35,982 nucleotides of DNA from a virus. The translations under genes and the position numbers were made by a program. Shown piece by piece: positions 5,520 through 31,847 of this stretch (positions are counted from its first letter, which is position 1; every line of letters starts with the position of its first letter). The notes under the pieces were generated by a model. That model was not told where the DNA came from, searched no databases, and saw only the letters and a list, made by a program, of their open reading frames with translations. The stretch spans positions 1 through 35,982 of the IMG/VR virus record IMGVR_UViG_3300025174_000065, one strand, 5' to 3'.

Positions 5520-7427
5520 ATGGCCTCTGTATCTGATCTCTTTAATAGGGCAGACAGCACCGCTCTCGGCGCGGATTGGGCCGAGGATACCGATTTTCAG
5601 ATCGTCAGTAACACGCTGCGCGATGCAACCGGATCGGGCAACTACAAAAAGTGCCGCTGGGTCGGCACTCCGATGGACTCCAATAATTATGATTCCGAGG
5701 TGGACGGGCGCGCAGCATCAAATGATCTGGGTTTTGGCGCGTTCGGGCGCGGCGCGGTCTCGGCGGTCATCACCTATTACGCTTTCGAGGGCTTCGGCGG
5801 AGATTCGTTTTATCTGGTCGAGGTTACTGCTGGTGTCGATAGTATCATTGCCACCGGCTCGGCCTGCACGGCCAGCACGACTTTCAACGCGCGCCTGCGG
5901 TGCAACGGTTCGGCACTCACGGGCTTTCGAAATGATGTGAGCGATGCGACGGGCAGCGATTCATCGCTCGCCAGCGGCGCGGTTGGGTGCGTCGCCTATG
6001 GGCCTCTGAACGGGGTGAATAGCTGGATCGATAATTTCGCGGCCGCTGATCTGGTTGCAGTCTATACTAAGACGGGAGGCGTATCGTCAACACGGCTGGC
6101 TAGCGGCGTCGATGCGAATATCTTCACCGAAACGGGAAGTGCCGCATCGCCACGCATCATTATCGGCGCAGATGCAGATGTCTTTGTCGAGACCGCGCGC
6201 ATATTCTCTCCAGGCGTCATCACTGGCGCAAGTGAGTATGTGCCAGGCTTTATCATTTATACCAAGACTGGCTTGATCGCCGCGACCGCGCAAATCAATG
6301 GTATAGATGCAAATGTGTTTGGTGAGACTGGCTTCGGTGCGATAACCGCACAGGTCAGCGGTTCAGATGCCAATATCTTTAATGAGGTTGCGGGCGCATC
6401 CGCGCCGAGTGTCATCACTGGCGCAAGTGAGTATGTGCCAGGCTTTATCATCTATACCAAGATTGGCTCAATTGCCGCAACGATGCAGGCCAGTGGCGCA
6501 GACTCCAATGTATTCGAGGAGACAGGTGCGGGCATTGCCACGGCGCAGGCCAATGGCGCAGATGCAAATGTGTTCGGAGAGACAGGTTTTGGCGCGGCAA
6601 CTGCACAGATAAGCGGCGCAGACTCCAATGTATTCGAGGAGACAGGCACGGGCATTGCCACGGCGCAGATTGCCGGCGCGGATAGTGCAGTTGCCAATGA
6701 GACAGGCGGCGCCACAGCCACGACGCAAATCTCCGGCGCAGATGTGACAGATAGCGTCGAAACGGGCGGCGTCACAGCAACGGTTCAGGCAGCGGGCGCA
6801 GATGCGAATGTCTTTACCGAAACCAGCGTCGCCGTTTCTCCTGGAGTCATTACCGGTTCATCGTCTGCGATTGCCGTATATGAAAAAACCGGCGCGGTGA
6901 CATCGACCCTCCAGGCAGCCGGCGTTGATGTGGTGCTGTTTATTGAATCGGGCGGCGTGATTGCCCCAGCACAGATAAGCGGTGAGGATGTATCAATTGC
7001 AGTCGAATCGGGCGGTGTCATTTCGCCGAGTGTCGTATCGGCGACGAAGATCGCCCTCTTCGAAGAGACCGGCTCGGCGACTGCGCCTGCGGTTGTTACC
7101 GGTGCGAGCGTATTCGAGCCAGCGTCCGGGCTTTACACCAAGACCGGCGGCGTGTCGGCCACAATGCAGGCGGGCAGCGGCGCACGGCGCATGGTCTATG
7201 TTGACAATGGCGCGGCGCTATTGGCGGCTGCGGCTGCGGGCCTGGATAGCATTGTCCTAAACAAGACGGGCGGGGCGATTGCGCCTGCGGTTGCTGGTGC
7301 GCGGCGTGTACGGGGCATCGGCGGCACGATCCCGGTTGGGATCGGTGAGTATGTGCTGGCGGCGACTGAGGAAGAGCGTCGGCGCCGGATCAATCAGGAT
7401 GACGAAGAAATCCTGTTTATGCTATGA
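5520..7427 (+). CDS. Repeat-containing fibre-like protein with lectin-like N-terminal domain
   Basis: A 635-residue protein. Residues 1-175 (LFNRADSTALGADW, DNFAAADL) resemble the concanavalin/laminin-G jelly rolls found on phage surface proteins. From about 180 to 600 it consists of imperfect units of about 20 residues of the type ETGxGxATAQxSGADxNVF, which suggests a long regular beta stalk. The C-terminal about 35 residues are charged (EEERRRRINQDDEE). The gene follows the previous stop directly. Its place between portal and head protease suggests a head fibre, but a receptor-binding tail fibre is also possible. Confidence 0.8.
   Translation: MASVSDLFNRADSTALGADWAEDTDFQIVSNTLRDATGSGNYKKCRWVGTPMDSNNYDSEVDGRAASNDLGFGAFGRGAVSAVITYYAFEGFGGDSFYLVEVTAGVDSIIATGSACTASTTFNARLRCNGSALTGFRNDVSDATGSDSSLASGAVGCVAYGPLNGVNSWIDNFAAADLVAVYTKTGGVSSTRLASGVDANIFTETGSAASPRIIIGADADVFVETARIFSPGVITGASEYVPGFIIYTKTGLIAATAQINGIDANVFGETGFGAITAQVSGSDANIFNEVAGASAPSVITGASEYVPGFIIYTKIGSIAATMQASGADSNVFEETGAGIATAQANGADANVFGETGFGAATAQISGADSNVFEETGTGIATAQIAGADSAVANETGGATATTQISGADVTDSVETGGVTATVQAAGADANVFTETSVAVSPGVITGSSSAIAVYEKTGAVTSTLQAAGVDVVLFIESGGVIAPAQISGEDVSIAVESGGVISPSVVSATKIALFEETGSATAPAVVTGASVFEPASGLYTKTGGVSATMQAGSGARRMVYVDNGAALLAAAAAGLDSIVLNKTGGAIAPAVAGARRVRGIGGTIPVGIGEYVLAATEEERRRRINQDDEEILFML
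6060..7310 (+). repeat. Intragenic degenerate 60-bp repeat array
   Basis: The stalk coding sequence repeats with a period near 60 bases. Some copies are almost identical: a 41-base block at 6216-6256 recurs at 6411-6451, and a block of about 54 bases at 6495-6548 recurs at 6615-6668 with two differences. The spacings (195 and 120 bases) are multiples of three. Near-identical copies amid diverged ones suggest recent expansion by unequal exchange. Confidence 0.9.
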
Positions 7428-11504: not shown

Positions 11505-12569
11505 ATGTCACTCACAAGCAAGATCATCGACATCCTTGACCCCCAAAGCGGGCGGCTCAAGGAGACCGTGCTGACCGACAACGAAACTGCGCCGCGCGTC
11601 AACCTGTTCGAGGCCAAAGGCGGACGGCGCATGACGCTTCAAGAGGCCACGATGACCGCCGACTTCCCGATGTTGCTGCGCGATGGCATCCGCACGATCG
11701 CATTCGACCGTTACATGGCGACACCCGTCACTTGGAATCAGTGGGCGGATGTCCTACCGAGCGATAAGGCCAGCGAAGACTGGCTCGAAGAGAATTCGTT
11801 CGGCGAGTTTCCGGTCGTGCACGAGAACACGCAATATCCGGAAGTCAAGGAAGACCTGGATCGGACGCTGAACATCCGCAACTACAAGCGCGGCATGATT
11901 GTCTCTGTTACCGAAGAGATGATCCGCTTCAACAAGGTTGGTCTGCTCACAAAGCGCGCGGCTAAACTCGGACGCGCGGCGGCTAACACGCGCGAGCAAT
12001 CCTGCTACACAGTGCTGACCACGGCAGGCAACTATGTTCGCAACAGCACGACCAGCGACAATGACATCGGCGCAAACACGGCGGCGACGACCTTCAGCGC
12101 GACCGGTCTCAATACCGCACTGACGGTACTCCGCACGATGAAGGATCGCAAGTCCGGCGCTTACCTGGGCGTCAACCCGGATTTGCTCATCGTCGCGCCG
12201 CGCCTCGAAGCGGCGGCGAAGCAACTGCTTCTGTCGCCGTTCCTGATGGGCATCGGCGACGCGGTGAGCGCCGTGACGTATGGACAAGGCACAACCAATC
12301 CGTTCCGGGGATTGGTCAATCGGATCATCGTCTCGCCGCGCCTCGGTACATCCTATCAATGGGTGCTGATGGAGGCGAAGCAGGCCGTCGTGCTGCAAGA
12401 AGTCGAGGGCTTCCAGATTTTCCAGGAGTCCGCGCAGCGTATCGAGCACGAAGGCTGGTTCACCTATGACGTGATCCGCTACAAGGCACGTGACTGGTTC
12501 GGTGTCGGCATGTTGAATGACCGGTACGCGTACTACAGCAGCAGCACGACCGCGCCGACGGTCGATTAG
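11505..12569 (+). CDS. Major capsid protein
   Basis: A 354-residue protein with HK97-fold features: a long N-terminal arm, a spine-helix region (EEMIRFNKVGLLTKRAAKLG), a central AAAKQLLLSPF segment and C-terminal strands FQIFQESAQRIEHEGWFTYD. The general plan recalls Mu gpT-like capsid proteins, which fits the Mu gpF-like minor head protein upstream. Size and the order protease, decoration, capsid are canonical. A GGGGGAA site precedes the ATG. The gene ends in TAG and is followed by a strong stem-loop. Confidence 0.93.
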   Translation: MSLTSKIIDILDPQSGRLKETVLTDNETAPRVNLFEAKGGRRMTLQEATMTADFPMLLRDGIRTIAFDRYMATPVTWNQWADVLPSDKASEDWLEENSFGEFPVVHENTQYPEVKEDLDRTLNIRNYKRGMIVSVTEEMIRFNKVGLLTKRAAKLGRAAANTREQSCYTVLTTAGNYVRNSTTSDNDIGANTAATTFSATGLNTALTVLRTMKDRKSGAYLGVNPDLLIVAPRLEAAAKQLLLSPFLMGIGDAVSAVTYGQGTTNPFRGLVNRIIVSPRLGTSYQWVLMEAKQAVVLQEVEGFQIFQESAQRIEHEGWFTYDVIRYKARDWFGVGMLNDRYAYYSSSTTAPTVD

Positions 12570-13417: not shown

Positions 13418-13969
13418 ATGCCGCTCACGATCGCGCAGCAGGTGCGCTTGAGAATCAGCGACCGCTGGCGCTATGCGTCCGAAGTGCGCTATGGTGATGG
13501 TAGCGGCTCGGCATTCAAGTTGGCGCAGGGTGCGCCATTTAGCAATCTCAATAGTGGCGCATCGGCGCTGGTTGCCACGACTGCCGGCTGGAGTGCATCG
13601 GGCGCGACCTTTAACACGGCGCTCGGCGTGCTGACATTCAGCGCAATCGTTTCGGCCAACAGTGCATGGCAAGCGGTGTATGAATGGGCCGTGTTTTCCG
13701 AAGAAGAGATCGGTCAGTTCACCGCCGTGGGCGCAGGCGTACCGGGCGCGGCGCTAGAAGCCGTGCGAACGCTGATGTTCGATGGCCTGCGCCGAGCGCG
13801 CTGGCACGCGGCGGACGGCACGATCTATGATGATACCGCCGCGCTCAAGCATTTGGCCGATATGCAAGACCGCCTGGAGAAGGAAGCCGAAGATATACCA
13901 GCGGGTGGGATCGAATCCTGGAGCGAGCAGCAGCAGTGGTGGGACGCGCCATATAGCCTATCGGGATGA
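13418..13969 (+). CDS. Putative head-tail connector protein
   Basis: A 183-residue protein in the slot usually held by the head-tail adaptor. It starts MPLTIAQQVRLRISD, with a beta-rich middle and a helical C-terminal half (AALEAVRTLMFDGLRRARW, ALKHLADMQDRLEKEAEDI), an arrangement seen in gp6/gp15-like adaptors that join the portal to the tail. Assignment rests on gene order and secondary structure, not on a clear motif. It overlaps the next gene by ATGA. Confidence 0.7.
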   Translation: MPLTIAQQVRLRISDRWRYASEVRYGDGSGSAFKLAQGAPFSNLNSGASALVATTAGWSASGATFNTALGVLTFSAIVSANSAWQAVYEWAVFSEEEIGQFTAVGAGVPGAALEAVRTLMFDGLRRARWHAADGTIYDDTAALKHLADMQDRLEKEAEDIPAGGIESWSEQQQWWDAPYSLSG

Positions 13970-14337
13970 CACGACCTGATTCAGAATACATCCGCAGACA
14001 AGCGGCGGTAGTGCTGGCGGGTGCCGGACAGACGGCGATTCTGCGAACGTTCGTCAGCGCGGCGGGCGGCTCGCCTCAATTTGGAATGAATGAAGCCGAA
14101 TCATTCCAGCAGCGAATCATCACGGGTATTTTCCGCGCGCCCTCGGCTATCGAACGTTCAATGCCTGGCGGGTTTGCTTTTGATGCCGACGTGTTGATTT
14201 CAACCGATAGCGCGCTCGCATCGCGTGACGAAATCACCTGGCAAGGTGTGCGCTATACGGTCGCAGGCAGCGCACAGATCGCATATCTGGGCGGGCGCGT
14301 GCAATATCGTTCGCCGCTCAAACTCGCAAACGGATAA
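13966..14337 (+). CDS. Putative head closure (stopper) protein
   Basis: A 123-residue protein beginning at an ATGA overlap. The N-terminal helix (DSEYIRRQAAVVLAGAGQ) followed by a beta-barrel-like region ending ITWQGVRYTVAGSAQIAYLG resembles head-tail joining proteins, in which a Gxxxxxxx strand pair measures the connector channel. The order capsid, connector, stopper, tail completion is canonical, but here the tail completion gene lies 4.9 kb further on, after a five-gene sugar-enzyme cassette. Confidence 0.68.
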   Translation: MTRPDSEYIRRQAAVVLAGAGQTAILRTFVSAAGGSPQFGMNEAESFQQRIITGIFRAPSAIERSMPGGFAFDADVLISTDSALASRDEITWQGVRYTVAGSAQIAYLGGRVQYRSPLKLANG

Positions 14338-14361: not shown

Positions 14362-15771
14362 ATGAAGCACATTAACAACCAAACAGGCAAACCTTATCGG
14401 ATTCTGTGGTTCGGTGATATGGTCATCCTGTCCGGCTTTGGCCGGATCGGTAACGAAGTTCTGCGCCGCTTGAAGGGACGCGGTTACGAGGTGCAGGCTG
14501 CTGGCATCGGTTATAGTGGCTGGCCGCATGATCTGCCGTTTCACGTCTGGCCGCTGGCGAATACCGATCTCTGGAATCCCATCACGTCGATCGTCGCTCA
14601 GACCCAGCCGGACATCCTGATTTCATGTCAGGATTTTCCCTATCACACGATGCTCTACAACGGCTGCCGGATCGATTTCTCCCGCCTCAAATGGTTATGG
14701 ATTACGCCGATCGATGGCACGCCGGTTCATCCTGATTGGCTCAGGGCGGCTGATTATGCCGATGCGGGAATGGTCATCTCGCGCTTTGGCGTCGAGGCCA
14801 TGCGGCAGGCAGGCAAGCACGTCGATCTGTGTCATCCGGGCGCGAATGCCGGCGAGTTCTATCCGGCGGCACAGGATGAGCGCGCGCGGTTAAGAGAAGT
14901 CGCCGGATTCGCGCCCGATGATTTCATAGTTGGCGTCGTATGTATGAACCAGGGTCGCAAGGCAATTCCGCCGATGCTTGAAGCCTTCCATGAATTCGCA
15001 CGCGATAAGCCAAATACCCAACTCATCCTGGACATGGATAAAGCAAGTCCGGCGGGATGGGATTTGCCGAACCTGCTCGTGCAGTTGGGATGGACGGATG
15101 AACAGAAGAAGCGCATTCGCTATCGAGAGGACTTGTTCAAAGCGCCGGACATGCTGCCGCTTCGCAATCGGTACGTGCTAATGGATGCCCATATGGTCAT
15201 CAGTCACCGTGAGGGATTCGGCCTGCCATTGCTCGAATCGATGGCTTGCCGGATTCCGACGATCACCTTAGACTATTGCAGTGGTACAGAGATCATCGGA
15301 GAGAATCGCGGCTGGCTGATACCACGTCTGGACTACATGCAGCACGGCACGTGGGGCGGCGCGCGCGATGCTTTCCCGGATGTGCCGGCGCTCATTGCCG
15401 CGCTTGAGGACATCTATCGAAATCCAATCGAAGCCGCCGCCCGCGCCGAGCGCGGCTACCAATGGGCACAGGCGCAAACGTGGGATGTAACGACGGATCA
15501 AATCGAAGCCGTGATACAACGCATCGTGAAGGAGATCAAGAGCCATGCAGAGCCAAGACACGCTAACACAAGCGGCATCCCCGCTCCCGGTTTATCTGAC
15601 ATCCACAGCCGGGGACACCGCGACGGTCAACATCCAGAATCCGCGCACGCTGTCGATCGTGATTCCGAGTTACAACGGCCTGGCACACTTGATCCCCTGC
15701 TTGAGGTCGCTGGTGCAGACGGCGCACCTGGCGGGGCAGGCGGGACGCTTACAGATCATCATCCAGGATGA
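14362..15771 (+). CDS. Glycosyltransferase, GT4-like (GT-B fold)
   Basis: The first about 393 residues form a GT-B glycosyltransferase: an N-terminal domain with RILWFGDMVILSGFGRIGNE and a C-terminal donor-binding domain with REGFGLPLLESMACRIPTI (the E-x7-E signature) and YCSGTEIIGENRGWL. It should transfer a sugar from a nucleotide-sugar donor. The reading frame continues for about 75 more residues after KEIKS, overlapping the next gene by 227 bases; that tail is low in hydrophobics and looks out of frame, so a lost stop codon is likely. It is the first gene of the cassette inserted between head and tail genes. Confidence 0.88.
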   Translation: MKHINNQTGKPYRILWFGDMVILSGFGRIGNEVLRRLKGRGYEVQAAGIGYSGWPHDLPFHVWPLANTDLWNPITSIVAQTQPDILISCQDFPYHTMLYNGCRIDFSRLKWLWITPIDGTPVHPDWLRAADYADAGMVISRFGVEAMRQAGKHVDLCHPGANAGEFYPAAQDERARLREVAGFAPDDFIVGVVCMNQGRKAIPPMLEAFHEFARDKPNTQLILDMDKASPAGWDLPNLLVQLGWTDEQKKRIRYREDLFKAPDMLPLRNRYVLMDAHMVISHREGFGLPLLESMACRIPTITLDYCSGTEIIGENRGWLIPRLDYMQHGTWGGARDAFPDVPALIAALEDIYRNPIEAAARAERGYQWAQAQTWDVTTDQIEAVIQRIVKEIKSHAEPRHANTSGIPAPGLSDIHSRGHRDGQHPESAHAVDRDSELQRPGTLDPLLEVAGADGAPGGAGGTLTDHHPG

Positions 15772-16429
15772 TTGCTCAACTGATTTCGATGTGATGGAGT
15801 GCATCGGGCCGCCAGCAGAACCAGAGCGTAATGCGGTCAATCTCGGCTTCGCGGGCAATTGCAATGCAGGCGCGCGGCGGGCAGGCGGTGACATCCTGCT
15901 CTTTCTCAACCAGGATACACGCGCATTTAATGAATGGTTCGAGCCGCTAATGATCATGTTCGATGATCCGAAAGTGGGAATCGTCGGGCCGAAATTGATC
16001 ACGCCTGTAATGAAGCCTGATGGAGCGCGCGACTATTCGATTCAATCCTGCGGCGGATTGTATGACGGCAATAAAGGCCCTTTCCATCGCTTTCTTGGCT
16101 GGGCCGCAGATGATCGCCGAGTAAATGTCCGAGAGCGTGTGAGTTGGACGACTGGCGCGGCGTTGGCAATTCGGCGTGATCTGTTCGCGGGTGTCGGCGG
16201 CTTCGATGAGGATTACAAGCGCGGCTACTTCGAAGATGTTGATTTGTGCGAGAAGGTAAAAGGGACAGGCTTTGAAATATGGTATTGTCCGGATGCTATT
16301 TTTCAGCATACGGTTGGGGTATCGGGTGGTGTGCCGGCAGAAGTGTTCAAGACAAATTCGATGCGCTTCCATCGCAAGTGGGACGCGATAATCACACCGG
16401 ATACCGGGATTATCCATGTCAATTACTAA
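15545..16429 (+). CDS. Glycosyltransferase family 2 (rhamnosyltransferase-like)
   Basis: A 294-residue GT-A enzyme. Residues 36-55 contain the family start RTLSIVIPSYNGLAHLI, followed by IIIQDDCSTD, the NLGFAGNCNAG acceptor-side loop, LLFLNQDTR (DxD position, 118-126) and FEDVDLCEKVKGTGF with the conserved ED pair. This pattern fits rhamnosyl-type GT2 enzymes. About 33 N-terminal residues precede the domain. The ATG at 15545 is preceded by AAGGAGATCAAGAGCC. It overlaps the GT4 gene upstream by 227 bases and the next gene by 14. Confidence 0.92.
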   Translation: MQSQDTLTQAASPLPVYLTSTAGDTATVNIQNPRTLSIVIPSYNGLAHLIPCLRSLVQTAHLAGQAGRLQIIIQDDCSTDFDVMECIGPPAEPERNAVNLGFAGNCNAGARRAGGDILLFLNQDTRAFNEWFEPLMIMFDDPKVGIVGPKLITPVMKPDGARDYSIQSCGGLYDGNKGPFHRFLGWAADDRRVNVRERVSWTTGAALAIRRDLFAGVGGFDEDYKRGYFEDVDLCEKVKGTGFEIWYCPDAIFQHTVGVSGGVPAEVFKTNSMRFHRKWDAIITPDTGIIHVNY

Positions 16430-17276
16430 GCGCATCCTCATCGCCTGCATCCATTATCCTGTCGCCAGCGGGCGCTATATCGCAATGGCGCTGCGCCGGA
16501 TGGGATATGACGTGAGAACGACCGGCCCGACGACGGGTAATCGAATCTGGGGCATCGAAGTCGATGCGCGCTATACCTGGAAACCAGACGAGCCTGAAGA
16601 AGGCTGGACGCCGGATTTGATCATCACCGCCGATAGCGCCTACACGATTCCAGATCGGCCCGATTGGACTTGCCCGCACATCCTATGGGGACAGGATAAT
16701 CATGCCAGCGATTATCGGCTCAGGGAATGGGATGCGATGTTTCTGTGCCATACTTGGGGTGCGCGCATGAATGAACCGAATGCATATTGGCTGCCGCCCT
16801 GTTACGATCCGAGCATGTGTTACGATGCGGGTCTAACGCGAGACATCGACGTGACATTGATTGGCTATCCCTATCAAGAGCGTATCGAACTGGCGGAGGC
16901 ATTTCAGGCCGGCGGACTTAAAACGCACTTTGGAATGGGCGCGGTATATGATGAATATCGGGAGATTTACAATCGCACGAAAATCGCACTCAATTGGTCG
17001 CACGGTGACATCACGAATCGCATCTTCGAGGCCGCCGCGATGGGCTGTTGCGTGCTGACGAATCCCTGCCACGATCTGGATAAAATGGGGCTTTGTCCCG
17101 GCGTCGAATTGTGGACATATATCGATACACCGGGCGCAATCCGTTCTGCGCAACAGTTGATCGAGACAGGCAACTGGCAGAAAGTCGCGCAGGCGGGCAG
17201 GCAAGCCGGCGCGCCGCACACCTGGGACAATCGAGCCGCGTTCGTGTTAGAAACGATGGGAGCCAAGAGCCAATGA
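16416..17276 (+). CDS. Glycosyltransferase, CgeB/GT1-like
   Basis: A 286-residue protein. It begins with ITKRILIACIHYPVASGRY, has a central WGQDNHASDY segment and ends with the donor-site pattern EYREIYNRTKIALNWSHG followed by NRIFEAAAMGCCVLTNP, typical of the Glyco_trans_1_2/CgeB group. It probably adds another sugar to the same product as its two neighbours. It overlaps the GT2 gene by 14 bases and ends at an ATGA overlap with the methyltransferase gene, so the cassette is one operon. Confidence 0.87.
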   Translation: MSITKRILIACIHYPVASGRYIAMALRRMGYDVRTTGPTTGNRIWGIEVDARYTWKPDEPEEGWTPDLIITADSAYTIPDRPDWTCPHILWGQDNHASDYRLREWDAMFLCHTWGARMNEPNAYWLPPCYDPSMCYDAGLTRDIDVTLIGYPYQERIELAEAFQAGGLKTHFGMGAVYDEYREIYNRTKIALNWSHGDITNRIFEAAAMGCCVLTNPCHDLDKMGLCPGVELWTYIDTPGAIRSAQQLIETGNWQKVAQAGRQAGAPHTWDNRAAFVLETMGAKSQ

Positions 17277-17956
17277 AACTCAATCTCGGCTGCGGTAACG
17301 TAATCTTCCCGTTGAATCGTGATGAGCCGATTCCGTTTCAGAATCATCTAATGCCACTTCAGCCGGAATGTTTCGAGGATAGTTGGACGAACGTTGACAA
17401 GTGGCCGAATCCAGGCGTTGCCGAAATCGTCAATCTATTTCATTTTCCCTGGATACGCTCAACTACCAATGCACCCTGGCCGGATAATAGTATTGATTAC
17501 ATTTACTGCGGACATCTCGTCGAGCACATCCCGCATGAAGTCAGAATTAGCCTGGATTGTCCGGTCTATATGTGGGCAGACTATACTCGGCTGTGCGAGG
17601 GATTCAATGGTCTATATATCTTCTTCCACGAAGTATGGCGCGTCCTAAAACCGGGTGGGCGTATTCATGTGCGGACACCCTATGCGCTGAGCACGGCGGC
17701 GTTATCCGACCCGACACATACACGATATATGACGCCGGCGACACTGGCCTACCTGGTCAAGCCGAAAGAGGTAATCCCATTCGACAATCATCTGCCGTTT
17801 GATTTCGATATGCCGCAATTGCCCATCATGCGAATCTGCGGCGATTTCGTCAAAGAAGTGCATGAGGGCATGACTGAAGAGGAATTCCGCAAACGCGCCA
17901 GCGACCAACTCGATTTCGTCGATGAGATTCAGACGACATTGGTCGCCATTAAATAG
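17273..17956 (+). CDS. Class I SAM-dependent methyltransferase
   Basis: A 227-residue enzyme starting at the ATGA overlap; a longer in-frame ORF from 17093 is a shadow of the previous gene. KLNLGCGN (residues 2-9) is SAM-binding motif I, PDNSIDYIYCGHLVEHIP is the acidic/post-II region and RVLKPGGRIHVRTPY is motif III. The substrate cannot be read from the sequence. Position among glycosyltransferases suggests sugar or glycan methylation, a known capping chemistry, but protein or small-molecule methylation is possible. Confidence 0.9.
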   Translation: MKLNLGCGNVIFPLNRDEPIPFQNHLMPLQPECFEDSWTNVDKWPNPGVAEIVNLFHFPWIRSTTNAPWPDNSIDYIYCGHLVEHIPHEVRISLDCPVYMWADYTRLCEGFNGLYIFFHEVWRVLKPGGRIHVRTPYALSTAALSDPTHTRYMTPATLAYLVKPKEVIPFDNHLPFDFDMPQLPIMRICGDFVKEVHEGMTEEEFRKRASDQLDFVDEIQTTLVAIK

Positions 17957-17981
17957 GATGAGCCATGAGCCACGCCAATGA

Positions 17982-19244
17982 TTGCATATCTGCCTGACAT
18001 TTCCTAGGAGCACCTTCCTCGAAGACCCGATGGTCATGCCGCCGCTGGGCCTGTGGTATTTGGCTGCCCAGTTGGAAGCGCAGGGCCACGCTACGGATTT
18101 CCGCGCACTGGATATTGACGAACTACCCCTTGACGGCGATTACGATCAACTCTGGATAAGCGCCACGTCGAGCCAGATGTTCGATGTCCGGCGCATCGGC
18201 GCGATTACGGCAGGTTGGACACGCACGCGCACGGTCTTCGGCGGCGCGGCAGCCTGGGCCAATCCCACTTCAGCGCTCGAATTACCGTTTGATGTCATCG
18301 TGTCGGGTGAGGCTGATCATCCCGATAGCGTGCGCCAAATTGCGAGAGGCGGGCAGCGACTCATTCAACCCGCCATTACGCCCGGCCCGATCAATTGGGC
18401 CTTGCCGCCGATCAGGAGATGGGACAATCGATACCACTTTGCACTCGAAGATCGCGCGGGCAATCGTCATCGTACAACGACCTTATTTACGAGTCGTGGT
18501 TGCCCTATGGCTTGTGCCTTCTGCGAATCTGGCCGTAACGGTGTTATCTGGGATCGGTTCGTCCGCTACGAGCCTTTATCTCTGGTCGAGGCGCAACTGA
18601 GAGAGATCGCCGAGCGCGGACATACTGGCGTCATGTTTTACGATGACATCCTGCCGTTGAACAAGCCGCGCACACTAGGGATCATGCAACTCCTCAAGCG
18701 ATATGGTCTCATCTGGCGTTGCTTCCTGCGGACAGATGTCATCAGCAAGCAAGGCGGATTCGATTACTTGCGCGAATTGGCTGATGCTGGATTGGTCGAG
18801 GTATTGGTCGGAGTCGAGAGCGCCGACCAGCGCATCAAAGATAACGTGCATAAGGGCACGACGATTGAACAAGATACCCAGGTGCGCGCCTGGTGTCGGC
18901 AGTTGGGCATTCGATTCAAGAGTCTATTTATCCTGGGCTTGCCGGGTGAGGATGCGGATAGCATGGCCCGCACGCGGGCATGGATATTCGAGCATCGGCC
19001 AGATCGGATCGATGTCGGCATCCTGATTCCATTTCCCGGCACGCCCATCACACGCAGCCATGACTATGCTGGCGCGGAATACGATCTGTATTGGACTGAG
19101 AAATTGCCCGAAGAATATTTCTACAAGGGCCAGCAGCGCAAGACGAACGCGCTCGTCGGCACTTCGGCGTTGCGGCCTGCTGAGATCGAGACATTCCGCA
19201 ACGCGCTGGTTGCCGACATCATCGCGGCGGGGATACCTTACTAA
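17982..19244 (+). CDS. B12-binding-domain radical SAM enzyme
   Basis: A 420-residue protein. Residues 1-130 resemble a cobalamin-binding domain (EDPMVMPPLGLWYLAAQL), without an obvious DxHxxG motif. The radical SAM core follows: SRGCPMACAFC (171-181) gives the CxxxCxxC cluster ligands C174, C178 and C181, and LVEVLVGVESAD and LFILGLPGEDADS are the later barrel motifs. It should use a [4Fe-4S] cluster and SAM to start radical chemistry such as methylation or rearrangement. Start is TTG at 17982; a GATGAGCCATGAGCC repeat lies just upstream. Stop is coupled (TAATG) to the tail gene. Confidence 0.9.
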   Translation: MHICLTFPRSTFLEDPMVMPPLGLWYLAAQLEAQGHATDFRALDIDELPLDGDYDQLWISATSSQMFDVRRIGAITAGWTRTRTVFGGAAAWANPTSALELPFDVIVSGEADHPDSVRQIARGGQRLIQPAITPGPINWALPPIRRWDNRYHFALEDRAGNRHRTTTLFTSRGCPMACAFCESGRNGVIWDRFVRYEPLSLVEAQLREIAERGHTGVMFYDDILPLNKPRTLGIMQLLKRYGLIWRCFLRTDVISKQGGFDYLRELADAGLVEVLVGVESADQRIKDNVHKGTTIEQDTQVRAWCRQLGIRFKSLFILGLPGEDADSMARTRAWIFEHRPDRIDVGILIPFPGTPITRSHDYAGAEYDLYWTEKLPEEYFYKGQQRKTNALVGTSALRPAEIETFRNALVADIIAAGIPY

Positions 19245-19669
19245 TGGCACTCATTACGATTGACACGAAAGAGCTGCGCCAACTGGCGCAGGACATGAGG
19301 CCGAGTGATATGCTGATGGTCGCGCGCGCGCGTAAGGCACTCAAGAAGGTTTCGTTCGCAACTGAGAAACGCGTCAAGCAAGAAATGCCCGTTGACACAG
19401 GCCGGGCGCGCGCTTCGTGGGGGCATTGGTCGGGTGGCACACATAACCCGGAAGCATCCGAAGGAGATTCTATTTTCCGCGAAGAGGATGGTGGATTAAG
19501 TATCATACAAGGCTCGAACGTGCCCTACATCGAAGCCTTGAATGCGGGACATAGCCAGCAAGCGCCGGCGGGCTTCATCGACAAGGCGAAACAGGATTCC
19601 GATGAAATACTCTCTCAAGAGTTGGCTTTCATCGATATTCTGAGGCGCGTCGAAGCGGGCGGTGAGTGA
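19244..19669 (+). CDS. HK97 gp10-like tail completion protein
   Basis: A 141-residue protein with the gp10 signature: MPVDTGRARASWGHW near the middle and PYIEALNAGHSQQAPAGFID toward the end. Family members join the head connector to the tail. The start is at a TAATG junction with the radical-SAM gene, so the foreign cassette is translationally joined to the tail genes. In most siphophages this gene follows the stopper gene directly. Confidence 0.92.
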   Translation: MALITIDTKELRQLAQDMRPSDMLMVARARKALKKVSFATEKRVKQEMPVDTGRARASWGHWSGGTHNPEASEGDSIFREEDGGLSIIQGSNVPYIEALNAGHSQQAPAGFIDKAKQDSDEILSQELAFIDILRRVEAGGE

Positions 19670-20208: not shown

Positions 20209-20682
20209 ATGGCAAGAGAAGTTCGTGTATTCGCAGAGGGCACGCTACGCTGGGTGCAGGCATCCGGCACGGGCGGCTGGGCGACGGCCAGCGGCGCGCT
20301 CACGGGCCTGATCGGATTCGTGCAGGCTGGCTCGAATTTCGCCAGTGCACGCGAATTTGCACAGATTCGTGAGCGTGGTGTATTGCATCATCACAAGTTC
20401 CAAAGCAATGCCGCCACCGAGATGACATTTACCTATCTGCAATCGGTTGCGGCCAGCGGCGCGAATCCGGCGACGGCCAGTGGTGCATCGACACCTCAGA
20501 TTCATCTCGAACTGCGCCAGAATGCAGCAGAGGATGGCGCGACTAGCGGCGAATATTTCCAATTCCGCAATGGCGTCATGCTGTCGCGCGGCTGGACAGA
20601 AGCCGAAGAGGGCAACCAGTATCAGGAATCGTGGCGCTTCCTGTCCTATCTCGGCCCGACAGCCAGCGGCTATATCGCCTGA
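20209..20682 (+). CDS. Major tail (tube) protein
   Basis: A 157-residue protein with a strong AAGGAG site before the ATG. Sequence is beta-rich with REVRVFAEGTLRW, LTGLIGFVQAGSNF and YFQFRNGVMLSRGWTEAEE, and its length and position before the chaperone genes fit the protein that polymerises into the tail tube. A second protein of similar style follows at once. Which of the two is the main tube subunit is uncertain. Confidence 0.75.
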   Translation: MAREVRVFAEGTLRWVQASGTGGWATASGALTGLIGFVQAGSNFASAREFAQIRERGVLHHHKFQSNAATEMTFTYLQSVAASGANPATASGASTPQIHLELRQNAAEDGATSGEYFQFRNGVMLSRGWTEAEEGNQYQESWRFLSYLGPTASGYIA

Positions 20683-20685
20683 GCC

Positions 20686-21114
20686 ATGCCCGGAATCGCA
20701 ACGGGCGAAGTGTTTGCCTTTCCAGAAGGCAAACTATATCTATACGCCAGCGCATCAGGCACGACCAGCGGCAGTGGGGTCGGCTTTGCCGAGAATGCGG
20801 CGCTTCAATTCGCCTATGATTGGATCGACGCGGCGGGCGCAGATGGACGGCACGATCACGTGCTGATGGCGAAAGAGGCGCGCCTGACGATTGGCGCGCT
20901 CGTCGGCGATCTGACACTATGGCGGCTGGCGAATGCAACGGCAGCAGTCAATGCCAAGTTCGAGGGATTGATCACGGGCGGCTACATTCAATCGGCTCAA
21001 TTCGTGCTGTATTCTGGCGCGGTCGATGCCGCCGGGATCAATCAGGCAGAAGGCGATCTATTCAGGGGTCGCTATGAAATGCACGCCTATGAATGGAGTG
21101 CGTTTGGGGGATAG
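20686..21114 (+). CDS. Second tail-tube-like protein
   Basis: A 142-residue protein starting three bases after the previous stop, preceded by CCTGAGCC. It has beta-type sequence (GEVFAFPEGKLYLYASASG, AKEARLTIGALVGDLTLW, FEGLITGGYIQSAQFVLYSG) and ends YEWSAFGG. The central part, with AKEARLTIG, recalls tube-fold proteins. It may be a tube subunit, a minor tube variant or a tail decoration protein. Confidence 0.72.
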   Translation: MPGIATGEVFAFPEGKLYLYASASGTTSGSGVGFAENAALQFAYDWIDAAGADGRHDHVLMAKEARLTIGALVGDLTLWRLANATAAVNAKFEGLITGGYIQSAQFVLYSGAVDAAGINQAEGDLFRGRYEMHAYEWSAFGG

Positions 21115-21118
21115 GACA

Positions 21119-21646
21119 ATGAGCCAAGAGCCAATCATCGCGCGCTCGCTCGACGATCTCTCAGAAGTCGAAATCTACATCACCGTTACCCGGCCCGATG
21201 GTCAGAAAATCGATGTACCATTGCGGGCCATGACCGGAGAAGAAGTCTGGAAAATTCGCCGGACGATTACCTGGCCGAAGCCGCCAATCAAAGATTTTCA
21301 GAAAATTCGCGGCAAAGTCGAACCGGTCTATGACGAGCAGAACGCAGATTATCAGGCGGCGCTTGAGGATGCCAATCGCCTACTCTCCTATAGGATGATG
21401 CTCGGCAGCCTCAAGATCGAAATCCCCGGCGCGACTGAGGAAGAGAGACTTGCAACCCTAATGAACCGGCTGGGACAATGGGCATTCAATCACCTACTGG
21501 CGGCGACATCGCGGCTCAACATTCCTCAGTTGGATGAGGTTGTTGAAGCCGCGTTGTCTTTTCGTCCCTTTAGACCTGCTGAGACACAAGGCGATGGCGG
21601 CGCACCGGTTGACGATGGGCGAATGGATGAGGCTGAGACGGGCTGA
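21119..21646 (+). CDS. Tail assembly chaperone, upstream frame (gpG-like)
   Basis: A 175-residue acidic protein from the ATG at 21119; the longer frame from 21026 is rejected because it overlaps the tube gene. It has a beta N-terminus (EVEIYITVTRPDGQKIDVPL), a helical body (GEEVWKIRRTITW, RLLSYRMMLGSLKIEI) and a disordered tail. Position between tube and tape measure genes and an overlapping second ORF in another frame match the lambda G/GT arrangement, whose products chaperone the tape measure protein. Confidence 0.82.
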   Translation: MSQEPIIARSLDDLSEVEIYITVTRPDGQKIDVPLRAMTGEEVWKIRRTITWPKPPIKDFQKIRGKVEPVYDEQNADYQAALEDANRLLSYRMMLGSLKIEIPGATEEERLATLMNRLGQWAFNHLLAATSRLNIPQLDEVVEAALSFRPFRPAETQGDGGAPVDDGRMDEAETG

Positions 21647-30105: not shown

Positions 30106-30677
30106 GCTATCATCCCCTGCCCGTTCGGCTGGGGTAGGGGAGAGAGCGCCGAGATAAGCGCGGCGACATTCGGGAAACGTCGCCCGCAGTATGTACCCTT
30201 GTTGCCCGCGAGTACGTAATAGAACTCCTTGAGATAGTCGATTCCGGCTTGCCAGGTAGTCGCGCTACCAGAGAATTTCTCGGCGGGCAAAATGCGCTCC
30301 GAGCCTGGCCCATAATCAGGATCGCGCATCGTTTGCTGTAGCACATCGAGTGCATGTGTGCGCCGTGCATCATTAGCGATCAGTGCGTTAGGGATTGGCA
30401 GACCATTGATTGTCGTGGTATTGCCCAATGCGCCAAGGATTTCAGGCGGATAAAATTTGATGTAGGGGATCGCAACCCAGCGAAAAAAACCCGCTGGGCG
30501 CGCGACATATTTGACGTAGCCATAGCCGCCGCGTAGTGGCTCGACGCGGGCTGCTGCAACCGCATTCGCACGCATCTCAGTATCGAGCGCGATGATGCGT
30601 TTGCAAAACCACACGAACGCGGCGATGCCGACGATGATGATGATGAGTTTCGCGGTGGCTTCGAGGATGTCAGCCAT
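30102..30677 (-). CDS. Membrane-anchored protein of unknown function
   Basis: A 191-residue protein from the ATG at 30677 (MADILEATAK), which has AAAGAGA upstream; an ATG at 30692 without a ribosome site is the alternative. Residues about 10-27 (LIIIIVGIAAFVWFCK) form one membrane helix, and the rest (VKYVARPAGFFRWVAIPYI, AGIDYLKEFYYVLAGNKG) should lie on one side of the membrane. It is larger than a holin. It may act in host takeover or superinfection control; no family is recognised. Confidence 0.8.
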   Translation of the reverse strand: MADILEATAKLIIIIVGIAAFVWFCKRIIALDTEMRANAVAAARVEPLRGGYGYVKYVARPAGFFRWVAIPYIKFYPPEILGALGNTTTINGLPIPNALIANDARRTHALDVLQQTMRDPDYGPGSERILPAEKFSGSATTWQAGIDYLKEFYYVLAGNKGTYCGRRFPNVAALISALSPLPQPNGQGMIA

Positions 30678-30954
30678 GCCATTCTCTTTCATTCAATGTT
30701 GGCAATAAACGATCACGCCATTTTCTTTCATGCTTTAAGAGGAAACGGTTTTGAAGCTTCACCCAAGCAACTTCTGAATTCCCAAACTCTTTCAATTTGT
30801 GATGGTATATGAGTCTAATATCTAGATGTTTTGTTTTGCCTACATAGATAACCTTATTTCTGTGGATGATAAAGTACACGCATGATATACGCGGGATTCC
30901 ACCACGGGATAGTTTGATTCTTGGAAGCATAAGCGGATCAATCTCTCTGTTCAT
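30670..30954 (-). CDS. GIY-YIG endonuclease domain protein
   Basis: A 94-residue protein that is almost only a GIY-YIG nuclease: VYF (26-28) and VIYVGKT (35-41) are the two signature strands, with Y27, Y37, R47, H51, E76 and N88 at the expected active-site positions. There is no DNA-binding module. It could be a small homing-type or repair-type nuclease acting on phage or host DNA. The gene is clearly AT-rich and overlaps both neighbours (ATGA with the upstream gene), so it is fitted into the operon. Confidence 0.85.
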   Translation of the reverse strand: MNREIDPLMLPRIKLSRGGIPRISCVYFIIHRNKVIYVGKTKHLDIRLIYHHKLKEFGNSEVAWVKLQNRFLLKHERKWRDRLLPTLNEREWHG

Positions 30955-31366: not shown

Positions 31367-31388
31367 ACACAGCGCAGAGGTGAGCGGA

Positions 31389-31847
31389 ATGAGAATCCTA
31401 AAAACCCTGGCAGAGATCGTAAAATTAGGACAAGAGCGGGCACTGTATATCCGCTGGTCGCGCGGCCCGACCCTTGATCGCGAGTGGGCGCACTCAGTTG
31501 ATCAAGTTAGCGGGCGTGTCCACAATGGCTTATCGGTGCAACGTGTGCGCGCCGATGATCCCTGGCTACTCGCAAAGATGCTGCAAGAGTATCAATTCCT
31601 GCGCCGCAAAGACGCCAAAATCTATTGCTGGATTTTGGCCGGCAGCGAAAACGGGACGGACTCGGACGGCGCACCGACAATCGATGCCGACACGATCAAA
31701 CCAATTGGCCGCATATCCGATGAGCTTATCCAGCTATGCTCGGCCTATAACAATGCTTGCTGGCAATGGGCGCGGGTTGGCTACCGCTCCAATCATCCGA
31801 GTGGTATTGGGGCTGAGGTCGAAAGATTGTGGCAACAAATCATCTAA
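31389..31847 (+). CDS. DUF6098-like protein
   Basis: A 152-residue protein from ATG 31389 (an upstream GTG at 31380 would add three residues). It contains YIRWSRGPTLDRE, VSGRVHNGLSVQRV, LLAKMLQEYQFLRRKD, CWILAGSENG and a late PIGRISDELIQLCSAYN, which follow the conserved order of the DUF6098 family, an uncharacterised group with R-W-S-R-G-P near the start. Function is unknown. It is the first full gene after the divergent control region. Confidence 0.72.
   Translation: MRILKTLAEIVKLGQERALYIRWSRGPTLDREWAHSVDQVSGRVHNGLSVQRVRADDPWLLAKMLQEYQFLRRKDAKIYCWILAGSENGTDSDGAPTIDADTIKPIGRISDELIQLCSAYNNACWQWARVGYRSNHPSGIGAEVERLWQQII

Follow-up and report, generated by a model that had tools for sequence, protein, structure and literature searches.

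Virion glycosylation has been demonstrated in few phages so far. PMC12363180, PMC11256854, and PMC12619734, citing Freeman 2023, describe phage glycosyltransferases (GTs) that glycosylate the capsid and tail tube of the mycobacteriophages Che8, Corndog, and Myrna, and PMC12619734 locates this glycosylation at C-termini. The Che8 set, gp108-110, consists of three genes near the right genome end that encode a GT2 with a TylF-like methyltransferase (MT) domain, a GT2, and a GT25. Phage-borne GT sets also include GtrABC, which carries out serotype conversion.

We analyzed the window, an IMG/VR virus record of 35,982 bases that may be an incomplete contig. Its late genes are those usual for a tailed phage: terL, portal, MuF-like minor head protein, maturation protease, major capsid protein (MCP), stopper, tail completion protein, TMP, and minor tail proteins. 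Between the stopper and the tail completion gene lies a cassette for three GTs, an MT, and a B12-binding-domain radical SAM enzyme (rSAM) (Table 1). Like the Che8-type set, it has at least two GT genes in one run, accompanied by a methyltransferase; unlike that set, it sits among morphogenesis genes rather than at a genome end. Compared with gp108-110, the GT2 weakly resembles gp109 (20 bits), while the GT4, CgeB-like GT, and MT have no match. Given this lack of homology, the cassette may work like the Che8 set but does not belong to the same gene family. No radical SAM gene is present in the stretch of Che8 around gp108-110. In contrast to GtrABC, the cassette is without GtrA and membrane proteins.

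Table 1. Positions of the cassette, its borders, and the capsid features discussed here
Feature	Position	Strand	Basis
Major capsid protein (MCP)	11505..12569	+	phrog_133 2.2e-32; phrog_371 major head protein
Ser/Thr-rich MCP C-terminal tail (SSSTTAPTVD), candidate O-glycan site	12537..12566	+	column conservation
Head-tail stopper/adaptor, upstream border of cassette	13966..14337	+	PF05354 (Phage_attach) 0.013 and phrog_939/763, weak; position conserved in relatives
GT4-type glycosyltransferase	14362..15771	+	PF00534 5.7e-10, over cut-off; phrog_2170 3.8e-24
GT2-type glycosyltransferase	15545..16429	+	PF00535 2.5e-16; NQD and EDVD motifs intact (alignment)
CgeB-like glycosyltransferase, GT-B fold	16416..17276	+	PF13524 1.1e-16
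Class I SAM methyltransferase (MT)	17273..17956	+	PF08241 (Methyltransf_11) 1.3e-5, over cut-off; LGCG motif intact
B12-binding-domain radical SAM enzyme (rSAM)	17982..19244	+	PF04055 2.3e-16; PF02310 2.5e-8; CPMACAFC
gp10-like tail completion protein, downstream border	19244..19669	+	phrog_169 tail completion/Neck1 (PHROGs) 1.8e-16; TAATG coupling

A similar late-gene placement is seen in the isolates phiPsal1, S-CBS4, and Mae-JY09, in which a homologous GT4 (tblastn, 2e-9 to 5e-23) lies among portal, MCP, and neck genes. We used single-sequence tblastn here because our GT4 and GT2 HMMs were partly trained on these phages, and the HMM scores for them are therefore not counted as evidence. All three also have GT2-like genes, and phiPsal1 and S-CBS4 have an MT. 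They differ from the window in gene order and in the MT itself, and they have neither a CgeB-like GT nor the rSAM.

The five enzyme families had been named in a sequence-only reading of the window, and all five ORFs proved open and intact on one strand, each scoring over its curated Pfam cut-off. Gaps of 24 and 25 bases occur; otherwise the genes overlap, and promoter- or terminator-like sites across the cassette were not above those in shuffled sequence. The proposed coupling of rSAM to the tail gene was seen as TAATG at 19242-19246, joining the stop of one to the start of the other. Of the two borders that the reading had assigned, the downstream one was well matched, while the upstream stopper gave a weak match only. 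The gene bounds held in part: the MT begins at the ATG at 17273, in an ATGA overlap with the CgeB gene, and not with the longer TTG frame at 17093, while rSAM starts at a TTG that is ATG in its homologues. PADLOC matches were trivial. Elsewhere in the window, we noted a minus-strand GIY-YIG endonuclease domain (30670-30954) and a DUF6098 protein (31380-31847).

The catalytic domain of GT4 extends to about 15528 and has an intact, conserved EX7E motif by alignment (residues 284-292); a C-terminal extension follows (15529-15771). GT2 scored 97.9 bits against the NCBIfam model MftF, below its cut-off, and its profile aligns with polypeptide GalNAc-transferases over almost its full length, which is compatible with a peptide acceptor. 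An AlphaFold model of the CgeB-like GT (pLDDT 90.9) gave GT4/GT-B proteins as PDB matches. Membrane segments were predicted in none of the five cassette proteins.

The final 80 codons of the GT4 ORF overlap GT2 out of frame (227 bases, 15545-15771), and comparable GT4/GT2 overlaps of 149 to 383 bases occur in eight relatives. When GT2 codons were reshuffled synonymously, the second frame stayed open in 6, 3, and 29 of 2000 trials for L095, L111, and L148, respectively. For these cases, which were picked for having an overlap, this suggests a real dual-coded tail rich in Pro, Ser, and Asp.

Is the cassette a chance insertion in one phage? We gathered relatives by an IMG/VR scan seeded with MCP rather than with cassette genes, reaching MCP identities down to about 38%. 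The order GT4-GT2-CgeB-MT between the stopper and gp10 was found in every MCP relative that spans the interval, 18 of 18 distinct lineages, where lineages are counted as distinct contigs rather than on a dated tree and records may be fragments. This count includes a variant, L123, with a second GT4 in place of CgeB; in L095, a GT4 is present after GT2. A search with PF13524 (CgeB family) gave a match in 17 of 17 records, over the cut-off in 16. Relatives gathered via GT4 agree, but they are not independent evidence. Because the same order recurs in all spanning relatives, we conclude that the cassette is not a chance insertion. The placement of the cassette inside the late operon by the sequence-only reading is also supported: the gene order is kept within the morphogenesis block of the relatives.

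In degree of conservation, the core matches the capsid genes. Median pairwise identities were 46% for GT4, GT2, and CgeB and 41% for MT, compared with 40% for MCP and portal. Core-gene distances track those of MCP (Mantel, 0/500 for GT4, GT2, and MT and 9/500 for CgeB) and also those of portal, so that the core is seen to be inherited together with the structural block. A scan of a genome collection with the GT4 alignment returned a single match, to 5.8 kb of phage sequence in an Anaerolineae MAG, which is too weak to assign a host.

Homing endonucleases have entered the cassette of one group of relatives (the L087 group), where HNH and LAGLIDADG types lie at the GT2/CgeB joint and beside rSAM (L106:12112-12930 and L106:14494-14931); in L092, an HNH-like ORF occupies the GT2/CgeB joint. 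Given these entries in the L087 group, gain and loss of genes at these joints are ordinary.

The cassette had initially been read as a single unit of five genes. This view did not survive the comparison: four genes form a fixed core, and rSAM is an accessory gene, mobile among phages that are not related. Within the lineage, rSAM was found only in the window and in the L087 group, which comprises several assemblies of one phage type. In L092, MT runs directly into gp10 without rSAM, and a search of the remaining lineage records showed no radical SAM gene at any other place. The nearest relatives of rSAM outside the lineage belong to phages whose MCP is of the SU10 type (L002, L126, L127, L134, and L135), and no backbone genes common to these phages and the window lineage were detected. 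There, rSAM ends a run directly after MCP that consists of a gene matching GTs below threshold only (L002:6025-6804), a GT4, an MT, and another GT. Full-length rSAM copies share 65 to 74% identity, and in a tree the window-lineage and SU10-type copies form one supported group (97/98), apart from copies in large phages. The order inside this group is not resolved, and the tree does not separate one from two acquisitions by the lineage (AU p 0.38). Judging from this distribution, rSAM is an accessory gene, acquired horizontally and exchanged between unrelated phages.

The more distant copies in large phages lie beside MT, GT2, GT4, and epimerase genes. Relatives in a plasmid collection had 22 to 28% identity among the matches listed; one, in Azospirillum, has epimerases and GTs as neighbors, and one, in Azoarcus, belongs to a lipid-type cluster without GTs, which counts against a glycan role. 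One large phage (L136:1-7344 and 20918-21301) encodes a 2447-residue protein that shares repeats with its neighbors and adjoins a radical SAM gene of a second type and a GT2-like gene.

By domain content, rSAM belongs to the B12-domain radical SAM superfamily, with PF04055 and PF02310 both over cut-off and an invariant CPMACAFC (CxxxCxxC) motif. Its scores against NCBIfam models were far below the family cut-offs: 102.5 bits for HpnJ (TIGR03471, cut-off 577.6), 80.4 bits for AprD4 (NF033070, cut-off 500), and 83 bits for PhpK. Hence, rSAM is a subfamily outside the curated families. HpnJ and AprD4, its best curated and PDB matches, are themselves of the B12-domain type, and AprD4 is the best single PDB sequence match; the likeness covers the radical SAM core and not the whole protein, and rSAM is not a member of either family. 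HpnJ, a hopanoid cyclitol-ether enzyme, and AprD4, a radical SAM diol-dehydratase, both act on a sugar unit. AprD4-like radical SAM enzymes may lack cobalamin. An AlphaFold model of rSAM (3-row alignment, pLDDT 51) was too poor to judge cobalamin binding or to serve in a fold comparison. The main reason for assigning a sugar role to rSAM is that it lies repeatedly beside sugar genes in unrelated backgrounds.

From the methyl and radical SAM steps, the sequence-only reading had deduced an unusual capped or rearranged sugar, not known to it from described phages. The methyl step is not new, since Che8, which glycosylates its virions, encodes a GT2 with a TylF-like MT domain (gp108). On a radical SAM step in phage virion glycans, we found no paper in the open literature.

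Reading from genomes alone, we think it probable that the cassette is a virion-glycosylation module and belongs permanently to the morphogenesis block in this tailed-phage lineage. GT4, GT2, and the CgeB-like GT, soluble and cytoplasmic, would assemble a short glycan from host nucleotide sugars on at least one newly made virion protein, and MT would cap or decorate this glycan. A further change to a sugar would be made by rSAM, which is confined to the window's phage and a single group of relatives; by analogy with AprD4 and HpnJ, it could be deoxygenation, C-methylation, or ring contraction. As the cassette is expressed together with the late genes, the glycan would be added during particle assembly. 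Soluble enzymes acting on a virion protein fit the lack of membrane segments, of GtrA, and of a ThyA-type enzyme, together with the late-block position. We infer the virion acceptor, the MCP tail as its site, the sugar type, and the rSAM reaction.

The MCP C-terminal tail is a candidate acceptor site. Its sequence YYSSSTTAPTV is kept while the remaining MCP diverges: the last 10 columns have 77% majority residue compared with 58% for the whole protein, and the window of the last 12 ranks 20th of 302 in conservation. Of five relatives that have no cassette, three (LPPA33, PY223, and Stenotrophomonas S1) have an MCP without such a tail; in the other two, L4768 and Mushu, MCP ends in different Ser/Thr-containing tails. 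The conservation could instead have structural reasons.

Two other proteins of the late block drew our attention. A 635-residue protein between portal and MuF (5520-7427) consists mostly of about 18 imperfect 20-residue repeats (ETGxxxATxQxxGADxNVF). It has no Pfam match, a diverged relative was found in L094 only, and it is possibly a head appendage and an additional glycan acceptor. The tail protein g20209 (20209-20682) has a conserved C-terminal tail of the GPTASGYL type, and a second copy of its family lies between portal and MuF in L087 (L087:3418-4065).

Perhaps the cassette alters host surface polysaccharide instead, for serotype conversion or superinfection exclusion? Exopolysaccharide and rhamnosyl GT profiles do weakly match GT2 and GT4, and host-serotype-altering phage GTs are known from literature cited in PMC12619734. 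However, no GtrA-type flippase was found in 14 records, which may be fragments, the five proteins are without membrane segments, and in all relatives the cassette lies with the late virion genes, whose time of expression would be late for an exclusion function. We therefore consider a host-surface role quite unlikely. Glycosylation of phage DNA on a modified base seems to us highly improbable. GTs of DNA-hypermodifying phages are known, again from literature cited in PMC12619734, but the cassette is placed with virion genes and not with replication genes, and no homologue of ThyA (thymidylate synthase/hydroxymethylase) was found among 17 records, which include five of 44 to 67 kb and may all be incomplete. 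A Tet/JBP search likewise gave no match, but neither did its control, so that search carries no weight. With both targets considered, the virion is the likeliest acceptor, as the sequence-only reading had supposed.

The part of rSAM in a virion glycan is less firm. The core GTs and MT might glycosylate the virion while rSAM is a passenger acting on a peptide, lipid, or nucleotide; rSAM is dispensable in the lineage and was separately acquired, and a P-methyltransferase and RiPP enzymes are among the curated proteins nearest to it. We think a passenger role unlikely, as members of this rSAM family stand at the end of GT/MT cassettes in two phage lineages that are unrelated and lie amid glycan genes in a third, and the best PDB match of rSAM is the sugar-acting AprD4. 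That an rSAM passed between capsid lineages carries out radical chemistry on a virion-attached sugar, perhaps at the MCP C-terminal tail, is a tentative proposal that we rate somewhat short of probable.

What is new is the fixed place of the four-gene core across the lineage and a radical SAM gene common to unrelated phages. With the same rSAM in two unrelated capsid lineages, the idea of sugar tailoring lends itself to direct testing, and the five-gene set offers a small, genetically clean system for enzymology. If our reading of the core is true, virion glycosylation would be obligatory throughout a lineage of uncultured phages, and the glycan would have to matter for particle function, since its genes are conserved like capsid genes. 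If the radical SAM step is also true, it would represent antibiotic-style sugar chemistry on virus particles.
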